In this document: positions 8,302-10,802 of the stretch, piece after piece
Layout of the letters: each line of letters starts with the position of its first letter
Position numbering within the stretch: position 1 is the stretch's first letter
Assembly: GCA_029210625.1 (NCBI GenBank)
Contig: JARGFU010000006.1
Span: 1-64,000 of the forward strand
Direction: 5' to 3'
DNA: 64,000 nucleotides
Origin: Deltaproteobacteria bacterium
GTDB lineage: Bacteria; Myxococcota; Myxococcia; SLRQ01
Notes under the pieces: generated by a model
Told to the model about the DNA's origin: nothing
The model's input: only the letters and a program-made list of their open reading frames with translations
Databases searched by the model: none
Position numbers and translations under genes: made by a program

Positions 8302-8532
8302 TCAGGTTGCGCGGGCGCGCAGGGGCGCGAGGATCTCCTGCTCCTCGTCCGGGAAGCGGCCGCTGGCGTGCTTCGAGTAGAGCAGGGCGCCATCCACGTG
8401 GATGTCGTAGATGCCGCCGCCGCCGCGGATCAGCTCGACCTCGACGCCCGGCAGGTCCTTCAGCTTGGCCGCCAGACCGGCGGCCCTCGGCTCGTAGTTT
8501 CAAGCCCCGCAGTAGGTGATCGTGATCTTCAT
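8302..8532 (-). CDS. SelW-like (SelT/SelW/SelH, Rdx family) selenoprotein with in-frame UGA at codon 11
   Basis: Reading ATG at 8532 through the TGA at 8502-8500 gives a complete 76-aa thioredoxin-like protein beginning MKITITYCGA-U-NYEPRAAG and ending in TGA at 8304-8302. The redox motif is Cys-Gly-Ala-Sec, where Cys-only members carry CxxC. The body (AAKLKDLPGVEVELIRGGGG, then IYDIHVDGALLYSKHASGRF, PDEE) matches the Rdx family in order and length. A 7-bp stem-loop sits 14 nt after the UGA (separate entry). The gene starts 22 bp after the DUF2063 gene, with GAGGA before the ATG, so it is the fourth gene of the DUF692 operon. Predicted role: thiol/selenol redox in the cytoplasm. The selABCD genes are not in the window. 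Confidence 0.87.
8467..8485 (-). promoter_or_regulatory. Bacterial SECIS-like hairpin downstream of the UGA codon
   Basis: On the minus strand GGCCGCC pairs perfectly with GGCGGCC around the 5-nt loop GGTCT. The loop begins 21 nt after the UGA and its first two bases are G. Both agree with the loose bacterial SECIS consensus (small apical loop with an early G, within about 16-37 nt of the UGA), which SelB reads. Confidence 0.75.
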
Positions 8533-8554
8533 GTCCTCGAGGATAGTCCAGGCG

Positions 8555-9304
8555 TCACCCTCGCGCCGGCAGGAGGATCAGGCCGAGCCCGGCCGCCCGC
8601 TCGAGGAGCGCCCCAGCCTCCTCCTGGCGCTGCCCGGACTGGCGGGCGGCCTCCTCCAGGGGGATGCCCTCGAGGGAGACCTTCAGGGCGAAGAGGAGGG
8701 GGTCCGAACCGCGGTAGTAGGAGGCGATCAGCCGCTCGGGGTGGCGGAAGACGAGGACCGTCTCCGGCGCCTCGAGGGGCTCTGGCGGCGGGGGAGGGGG
8801 CTCGCCCCGCGAGGCGCGCGCGTCGTGCTCCAGGACCCAGTCCACCAGGGGGAAGGCGACCTGGAGGACCCGCAGGGTCGGGTTGGGGGTGGGGGCCTTG
8901 AGCGAGGCGGGCTCGGGCTCGCGGGCCTCGTCGGCGTAGGCCGCGAAGCACTCCCACTCGAAGCGGGCCAGCGCCACGGCGAAGGCCGGCACGCGCGCGT
9001 CGCCGGCGGCGTGCAGGGCCTCGAGGAAGTCGGCGAAGGGCTCGGCGGCCCGGTTCAGCTCCCAGGAGCGGGCCGGGTGCGAGAGGTAGAAGCCCCCGGC
9101 CAGCTCCCCGGCGGACTCGCCGAGGAGCGCCCAGCTCATCGGGTGGTTCTTCTCCACCACCGAGACGACGTGGTGGCGGACGAAGTTCCGGTAGATCGTC
9201 AGGCGGGCCGGATCGCAGCCGAGGATCCGGGCCGTCGCGTCGGTGGAGGCCTCGCCCCGCAGCAGGGCGTGGAGCTGCGCCTGGGTCGCCCTCAGCGCGT
9301 CCAT
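8555..9304 (-). CDS. DUF2063 (HvfC/BufC N-terminal domain) partner protein of the MNIO
   Basis: 249-aa protein. The N-terminal ~95 residues match DUF2063: AQLHALLRGEAS, RLTIYRNFVRHHVVSVVEKNHPMSWALLGE, GGFYLSHPARSWELNRAAEPFADFL. The C-terminal part carries a Pro-rich stretch and VLVFRHPERLIASYYRGSDPLLF, as in BufC/HvfC proteins. In described systems this partner delivers the precursor peptide to the DUF692 enzyme. The ATG at 9304 lies inside the end of the DUF692 gene (13-bp overlap), showing coupling. An upstream in-frame extension to 9403 is rejected because it lies entirely within that gene. Confidence 0.88.
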   Translation of the reverse strand: MDALRATQAQLHALLRGEASTDATARILGCDPARLTIYRNFVRHHVVSVVEKNHPMSWALLGESAGELAGGFYLSHPARSWELNRAAEPFADFLEALHAAGDARVPAFAVALARFEWECFAAYADEAREPEPASLKAPTPNPTLRVLQVAFPLVDWVLEHDARASRGEPPPPPPEPLEAPETVLVFRHPERLIASYYRGSDPLLFALKVSLEGIPLEEAARQSGQRQEEAGALLERAAGLGLILLPARG

Positions 9305-10200
9305 GCCGCGACCTCCACCTCGCCGAGGGTCTCGCGGGCGACAGCCCGCACCTTGCGGTTCTCCTCCAGGAGGACCGGGAGCTCGGGGATGTCGTTGTCC
9401 CACTCCACCAGGGTGCTCACCGGGCCGGTGTGCTCGAGGGTGTGGGCGTAGAGCGCGAGCACCTCGGGGACGGCCGGCGCGCCGTGGGTGTCGATGATCA
9501 CCTCGGGCAGGCGCTCGTGGCCGGCCATGTGGATCTGCACCACCGCCTCGGGGGGGATGCCCTCGATGAAGGCGCGGGGCTCGTAGCCGTGGTTCTGGCT
9601 GTTCACGTAGACGTTGTTCACGTCCAGCAGGAGCTTCACGCCCGTCCGGGCGACCAGCCGCTGGATGAACTCCAGCTCGCTCATCTCGGAGGCCCCCAGC
9701 TCGATGTAGTAGCTCGGGTTCTCGAGGGCGAAGGGGATCGGGAAGCGCCGCTGGATCCGCTCCACCCGGCGGCTGACGTGATCGAGCGCCGCCTCGGTGA
9801 AGGGGAGGGGAAGGAGGTCGTGGTACTCGACGCCGAAGCCGCCGCTGGAGCAGAGGTGGTCCGAGAACCAGGGCGCCCCGGTGGCGTCGATCAGGCGCTC
9901 GAGGTGCGTGAGGTAGTCCTCGCTCAAGGGATCGGGGCCGCCGATGGAGAGGCCGACGCCGTGGAGGACGAAGGGCCTGGAGCGCAGGAGCCGCTCGAGG
10001 ACGGCCCGGGGGCGGCCGCCGAAGGACATGTAGTTCTCGACCAGGATCTCGAAGAAGTCGATCTCGTGGCGGGTCGCCTCGGCCTCGACGGTCTCGACGA
10101 TCGCGTCGTAGTGCGGGCGGCGCAGTCCGATCCCGTGACCGAGGTAGGGGACGCCGCCGGCCGGCGCGGGTCTCGGGGTCTGCAGCGCGAGAGCGGTCAT
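9292..10200 (-). CDS. DUF692 multinuclear non-haem iron oxidative enzyme (MNIO; BufB/HvfB/MbnB family)
   Basis: 302-aa TIM-barrel protein. Characterised members use a di- or tri-iron centre to rearrange cysteines of a small precursor peptide into copper-binding heterocycles. Family motifs are present in order: VLHGVGLSIGG (His80), WFSDHL (Asp114, His115), FALENPSYY (Glu160, Asn161), LLLDVNNVYVNSQNHG (Asp193, Asn196, His204), QIHMAGH (His224, His228), IDTHG (Asp237, His239) and LVEWDNDIP (Glu266, Asp268). The set of likely metal ligands looks intact. The ATG at 10200 has AGGTGA upstream. It lies between a Cys-rich precursor gene and the DUF2063 partner. Confidence 0.95.
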   Translation of the reverse strand: MTALALQTPRPAPAGGVPYLGHGIGLRRPHYDAIVETVEAEATRHEIDFFEILVENYMSFGGRPRAVLERLLRSRPFVLHGVGLSIGGPDPLSEDYLTHLERLIDATGAPWFSDHLCSSGGFGVEYHDLLPLPFTEAALDHVSRRVERIQRRFPIPFALENPSYYIELGASEMSELEFIQRLVARTGVKLLLDVNNVYVNSQNHGYEPRAFIEGIPPEAVVQIHMAGHERLPEVIIDTHGAPAVPEVLALYAHTLEHTGPVSTLVEWDNDIPELPVLLEENRKVRAVARETLGEVEVAAWTR

Positions 10201-10230
10201 GGGGTCACCTGAAGAGAGGGGGGGTTGATA

Positions 10231-10264
10231 CGCCCCCCGTGCCGGCGGCGCGGACGGGGGGGCG
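10231..10264 (-). other. Strong hairpin between precursor and DUF692 genes
   Basis: CGCCCCCCGT and ACGGGGGGGCG form a 10-bp stem with one bulged base, within the 85-bp spacer after the precursor gene. There is no U-tract. Such a structure could limit read-through or protect the 5' precursor mRNA, so that precursor outnumbers enzyme, a common need in RiPP operons. That role is inference. Confidence 0.55.
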
Positions 10265-10285
10265 CAATCGCGAGTCCGCAGGCGA

Positions 10286-10591
10286 TCAGCCGCCGCAGGA
10301 GCCCGCGCCACAGCTGCCGGCACCGCAGGAGTGCTCGCCGCCCTCGGTCGCGGCCTCGCCGCCGGCCTCGCCGCCGCTCTCCGGCGCGGCCTCACCGGCC
10401 GCCTCGGCCTTGCCGCCGCAGCTGTGCTCGCCGCCTTCGGTCTTGCCACCGCAGGAGGCGCCGCCGCAGGACTTCTCCTCGGCCTTCACGTTCTTGGAGG
10501 CCCCGGCGCAGCCGGTGGCGCCAAGGCCCAGGCTGCCCAGGGAGATGGTGGCCGCCAGGGCGCCCATCGTCATGGTCTTGCTGATCTTCAT
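10286..10591 (-). CDS. Exported Cys-rich precursor peptide of the DUF692 operon (bufferin/HvfA-like)
   Basis: 101-aa small protein: a basic hydrophobic leader of about 27 residues ending at GATGC (possible lipobox with Cys28), then an Ala/Glu/Gly-rich low-complexity region with seven Cys in all (28, 42, 47, 58, 89, 94, 99). Six of them sit in Ser-Cys-Gly motifs: SCGGASCGG, EGGEHSCGG, and a terminal EGGEHSCGAGSCGAGSCGG. Placement directly before DUF692 and DUF2063 genes identifies it as the probable substrate, comparable to HvfA/BufA peptides that carry repeated EGKCG motifs. The motif here differs. Start at 10591 has a GAGGAG Shine-Dalgarno. A longer frame (to 11185) runs antisense to the next gene and is rejected. 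Confidence 0.85.
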   Translation of the reverse strand: MKISKTMTMGALAATISLGSLGLGATGCAGASKNVKAEEKSCGGASCGGKTEGGEHSCGGKAEAAGEAAPESGGEAGGEAATEGGEHSCGAGSCGAGSCGG

Positions 10592-10633
10592 CGAGATTCT
10601 CCTCTTCGGGAGGGTTGGGGTTGATGCCTCTAC

Positions 10634-10659
10634 TTGGGCCGGTGGGCGGGGATGGTTAC
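10634..10659 (-). promoter_or_regulatory. ECF-sigma-type promoter of the DUF692 operon
   Basis: On the minus strand GTAACC (10659-10654) is followed after exactly 16 nt by CCAA (10637-10634), giving an expected 5' UTR of about 35-40 nt before the precursor ATG. It closely resembles the GTAACC-N16-CGAA box that I recall being described for the metal-responsive ECF factor SigF of Caulobacter, which controls DUF692-type operons. One base of the -10 box differs. No ECF/anti-sigma pair lies next to the operon. Confidence 0.55.
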
Positions 10660-10802
10660 AGCCGCCCCCACCGGTCCCTTCATCGGGGCGAGCGATAGGG
10701 TGGGCCGCCCCCGGTGGGGCGGCCAGCGCCCTCGCTCCGGCGTGAATCTTTGGGCTAGGCTCTCCGTCGAGACGGTCAGAGCTCACCTCGAAAGGGAGAC
10801 CC

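Follow-up and report, generated by a model that had tools for sequence, protein, structure and literature searches.

Positions 10591–8555 of the window (the whole 64-kb stretch of myxobacterial DNA analyzed here) hold what is, from its sequence, an ordinary three-gene MNIO RiPP operon that is bufferin/captophorin-like, and the gene behind it encodes a selenoprotein of the SelW type. This neighborhood had been predicted to be a new MNIO system with the Rdx (SelW) protein as its fourth member. The operon and the selenoprotein gene are both borne out by family matches, a SECIS hairpin and the Sec machinery of the genome; the four-gene system is not. Our preferred reading, to which we give a probability of roughly 0.7, is an ordinary MNIO copper-peptide operon accompanied by an incidental, lineage-specific SelW gene that has no conserved role in peptide making.

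Gene order at the locus

All four genes lie on the minus strand, in the order precursor, MNIO, DUF2063 protein and Rdx/SelW. Precursor and MNIO genes are separated by 85 bp, the MNIO and DUF2063 genes overlap by 13 bp (−13), and 22 bp lie between the DUF2063 and SelW genes; the single direction and the three junctions agree to the base with the original prediction, which had overlooked a same-strand YceI gene after SelW (8161–7559). Judged from the spacing and the ribosome-binding site of SelW, co-transcription of the four genes is likely. The features are:

10654..10660, minus strand: TGTAACC, resembling the −35 half of an ECF-type promoter motif; the precursor start codon follows after ~70 nt
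10286..10591, minus strand: RiPP precursor (BufA/HvfA-like), 101 aa; homology to Myxococcaceae precursors
9292..10200, minus strand: MNIO (DUF692) precursor-modifying enzyme, BufB/HvfB-like, 302 aa; PF05114
8555..9304, minus strand: DUF2063 partner (PME-type 1, HvfC/BufC-like), 249 aa; PF09836
8467..8485, minus strand: bacterial SECIS hairpin, 7-bp stem, GGUCU loop; fold z-score −2.45
8302..8532, minus strand: Rdx/SelW-family selenoprotein, 76 aa (MKITITYCGAUNYEP...); PF10262
7559..8161, minus strand: YceI-family exported protein; PF04264, E=6.5e-51

The selenoprotein and its UGA codon

SelW-type proteins are thioredoxin-fold thiol oxidoreductases. The Rdx protein of the window matches PF10262 (E=4.2e-16, 59.3 bits against a cut-off of 22.6) and TIGR02174 (51 bits against 34), resembles SelW-type structures, has no signal peptide and is encoded by the only Rdx gene of its genome. 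An in-frame UGA at 8502–8500 falls within the CxxU motif (CGAU) and is followed closely by the SECIS hairpin, which recurs at this position in about 30 related Rdx genes; almost every UGA-containing Rdx gene of the relatives has a GU-containing loop at the equivalent place. Elsewhere, the same genome encodes SelB, scoring above cut-off, and a tRNA-Sec (anticodon TCA). The hairpin, its conservation in Rdx genes, SelB and tRNA-Sec make UGA decoding credible, and the predicted SelW selenoprotein is genuine. That the UGA acts as a stop, leaving a dead or truncated gene, is a reading we consider barely tenable, as the family match spans the codon and continues past it (residues 2–65) in a genome equipped with SECIS, SelB and tRNA-Sec. 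Comparison of the SelW region with Rfam returned chance matches only.

The Rdx/SelW selenoproteins of Myxococcia likewise carry CxxU, with the SECIS in the same place, and are 37–50% identical to the window SelW; whereas the window gene adjoins an MNIO operon, those of its relatives lie elsewhere. One relative has a tandem Rdx pair (L016; G050:C44:127685-128259), of which one gene has UGA (CNSU) and the other has Cys at that place.

Precursor, MNIO enzyme and DUF2063 partner

A Cys-containing precursor with a signal is encoded directly upstream of the MNIO gene, and homologs occupy the same place in relatives. Its leader is hydrophobic and of the lipoprotein type, with GATGC (signal judged by eye and from homology), and its six core cysteines all fall in xCG[G/A] sites: KSCGG, ASCGG, HSCGG, HSCGA, GSCGA and GSCGG. 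Profile searches of Pfam and NCBIfam gave no match to the precursor. Homologous Myxococcaceae precursors follow the pattern MN[V/A]KALAA..LATGCAS...GSCGAGSCGG in the same layout as in the window, with either GSCGAGSCGG or EGKCG repeats; an example is that of L046 (MNVKALAAVVGTLSLGALATGCAS...EGSCGAGSCGAGSCSGKK), and the L047 ortholog of the window precursor has EGKCG repeats (...EGKCGEGKCGEGKCGEGKCGGKK). Exact EGKCG repeats, by which Oxazolin/Buf_EGKCG precursors are assigned, do not occur in the window precursor. The precursor was also considered as a selenoprotein, with its UGA stop read as Sec, and this was rejected: the extension contains no Cys, the structure 3' of the UGA is no more stable than that of shuffles (z −0.44), and Myxococcaceae homologs end in GKK, QKK or similar.

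The MNIO enzyme matches PF05114 (E=6e-97, 324.5 bits against a cut-off of 25) and is similar to the solved DUF692 structure 3BWW (E=2e-41). Its closest NCBIfam family is BufB (NF050167), which it matches at 302 bits, below the cut-off of 310. Directly downstream, the DUF2063 partner matches PF09836 (E=2.7e-13, 50.4 bits against 27.2), its closest NCBIfam family being HvfC (NF050145, E=1.1e-13, under the equivalog cut-off). Identity to the Myxococcaceae counterparts is 46–52% for MNIO and 34–39% for the DUF2063 partners. A tree of 148 MNIO rows places the window enzyme, with moderate support, together with that of L062, a Myxococcales MAG, and next with those of L196, L197 and L201, from other Myxococcota families. 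L062 holds the nearest MNIO (56% identical) in the order precursor–MNIO–DUF2063, followed by an opposite-strand gene that is rhomboid-like by eye.

In DUF2063 partners from Myxococcota, the C-terminal part matches the N-terminal region of SbtM (TIGR04082, a thio(seleno)oxazole radical SAM maturase). The match is weak in the window partner (residues 90–247) and is present also in the L046 and L197 partners. A link to selenium through this match was considered and dropped: Myxococcota DUF2063 partners without SelW match equally well or better, so the match reflects a shared domain. It suggests a common precursor-binding domain in two RiPP systems, those of DUF2063 partners and SbtM, that make related heterocycles.

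Relation to known MNIO clusters

Clusters of this kind go by the names bufferin or Buf_EGKCG/oxazolin (PMC12452194), and EGKCG-type products contain 5-thiooxazoles and bind copper (PMC13097082). The window operon shares with the HvfABC/oxazolin (Buf_EGKCG) and fontiphorin clusters, the 'captophorins' (PMC13097082, PMC12452194), the order precursor–MNIO–DUF2063, an exported precursor with Cys-Gly repeats, and an MNIO of the large HvfB/BufB cluster. It differs from them in its repeats, which are mostly SCG[G/A] and not EGKCG, in its lipoprotein-type signal, in the SelW and YceI genes behind the operon, in the lack of DoxX and in scores under both the HvfB and HvfC equivalog cut-offs. DoxX, frequent though not obligatory in bufferin clusters, gave no match across the window's first 25 kb.

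With the bufferins Buf1 (DUF2282) and Buf2 (6/12-Cys), the window has the three core genes in common and an MNIO close to the BufB threshold (302 against 310 bits); unlike in bufferin clusters, sigma/anti-sigma genes were not noted adjoining. Since the precursor matches neither Pfam nor NCBIfam, it is not Buf1. The Myxococcaceae MNIO operons (L039–L061 and L207–L213) likewise combine an orthologous lipoprotein-type precursor, MNIO and DUF2063 partner, often with YceI adjacent; in contrast to the window, they have no SelW, and their YceI precedes the precursor rather than following it.

Conservation of the MNIO–Rdx adjacency

The gene neighborhoods of a further 146 MNIO loci were surveyed at sequence level; most of these loci belong to Myxococcota and Pseudomonadota, and a few are the same place taken twice. 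The MNIO–DUF2063 core is present in all but two, with DUF2063 following MNIO; an Rdx gene is present in none, the nearest relative L062 included. A sample of the class showed Rdx in 30 of 58 genomes and MNIO in 44; in each of the 26 other class genomes that have both, the genes either sit on separate contigs or are over 200 kb away from each other (coordinates read by eye). Among the MNIO matches listed for 195 genomes of the phylum, none has Rdx nearby. The reverse survey covered about 100 Rdx loci: 29 from the class and 37 further ones, mainly from Pseudomonadota, at ±1.5 kb each, and 40 at ±6 kb, some overlapping. Neither MNIO nor DUF2063 stands beside Rdx in any of these, and the window genes have no synteny in common with the Rdx loci of relatives. 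At family level, the comparison consists of one other genome, 85% complete, which has neither Rdx nor MNIO. Counting against a chance neighbor, a rough estimate puts the probability that two given genes stand side by side at random, in a genome of 6 Mb, at a few in 10,000. A literature search retrieved no paper with both 'DUF692' and 'selenoprotein', and neither selenoproteins nor Rdx come up in the MNIO landscape paper.

The outcome is a clean negative on MNIO–Rdx conservation. The original prediction had made its four-gene system depend on the pair being kept in relatives; the adjacency is absent there, so the system is not supported. SelW appears most likely to be a chance, lineage-specific neighbor.

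Proposed pathway and the role of SelW

We propose that the precursor would be translated with a Sec/lipoprotein-type signal and presented by the DUF2063 partner to the iron-dependent MNIO enzyme, which would turn the Cys-Gly sites of the core into sulfur heterocycles by oxidation, with 5-thiooxazole the probable form. Once exported, and perhaps anchored by a lipid, the product would capture surplus Cu(I) in the envelope when the cell is exposed to metal or oxidative stress. Both the modification chemistry and the copper function of the product are inferred from related systems; as exact EGKCG repeats are absent from the precursor, 5-thiooxazole and copper binding are assigned solely by analogy. 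SelW would have come to lie between the DUF2063 gene and YceI in this lineage, and would probably be translated from the message of the operon, which we take to be co-transcribed, while being incidental and not needed for peptide making.

A point against an incidental SelW is its position: the same strand, a 22-bp gap and a good ribosome-binding site (GAGGA, 8538–8534) suggest deliberate co-expression. Given also a Cys-rich substrate and membership in a thiol oxidoreductase family, SelW might have a working part in the RiPP pathway of this lineage as an accessory, holding the cysteines of the precursor or the iron site of MNIO in the reduced state. We regard this as quite unlikely: besides the lack of Rdx in every other MNIO locus surveyed, the tree-nearest L062, L196, L197 and L201 among them, the related MNIO–partner pair FonBC works when just the pair is co-expressed with its precursor (PMC13097082). 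Equally doubtful is that this one lineage recruited SelW to assist in making, reducing or recycling heterocycles derived from Cys in a copper-binding lipopeptide anchored to the envelope. If SelW did take part in MNIO chemistry, no selenoprotein would have been linked to MNIO enzymes before it, as far as the literature searched shows, and the gene would open a genetic route to the role of bacterial Rdx proteins, which is poorly understood.

Promoter motif and YceI neighbors

Two regularities of Myxococcota MNIO operons emerged, an ECF-type promoter motif common to a subset and YceI neighbors, and both look more real than an MNIO–SelW system. The motif, TG[T/A]AAC[C/T]-N15-18-CGTA, has the form of an ECF promoter. 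Of 70 Myxococcota loci, 14 carry it in the 1 kb preceding MNIO, compared with 8 occurrences in the other 1.32 Mb. Its enrichment ahead of the precursor gene is strong, with L041, L181, L182, L184, L213 and L215 as examples. CorE has been described as a copper sigma factor (PMC3107203). The promoter that had been predicted for the window stands in part: TGTAACC at 10654–10660, the sole copy in the 64 kb, matches the −35-like half, but the CGTA half is not matched at the right spacing, and a sigma-70 promoter scan found no site.

YceI genes adjoin the MNIO operon in 15 of the 70 Myxococcota loci (L039, L040, L045, L046, L048, L049, L051–L053, L055, L189, L197 and L210–L212), in addition to the window. 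With 4–5 copies per genome of 6–9 Mb, far fewer than one such neighbor would be expected in 70 loci; because many of the loci are close relatives, the independent events behind this count are few. The neighbors, checked as PF04264 members in examples, come from different YceI subfamilies. YceI goes unmentioned in the MNIO landscape paper. An upstream ORF in L033 is YceI-like in look and was left out of the count, as it has no Pfam match.

The recurrent motif and the recurrent YceI neighbor suggest an envelope-stress regulon, and with a shared transcript likely, SelW could stand outside biosynthesis and be kept for its usefulness under the same metal or oxidative stress, as a lineage-specific extension of that regulon. 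We consider this account improbable, if somewhat less so than a part for SelW in biosynthesis, with SelW in this position in one genome only and the −10 half of the motif missing from the window. An incidental SelW is still our preferred reading.

The placement of YceI varies: in Myxococcaceae it precedes the precursor gene, in the window it follows SelW, and in L197 (genome G191), whose precursor carries a long run of KKC[C/G] repeats (GADKKCCADKKC...), it comes directly after DUF2063, without SelW.
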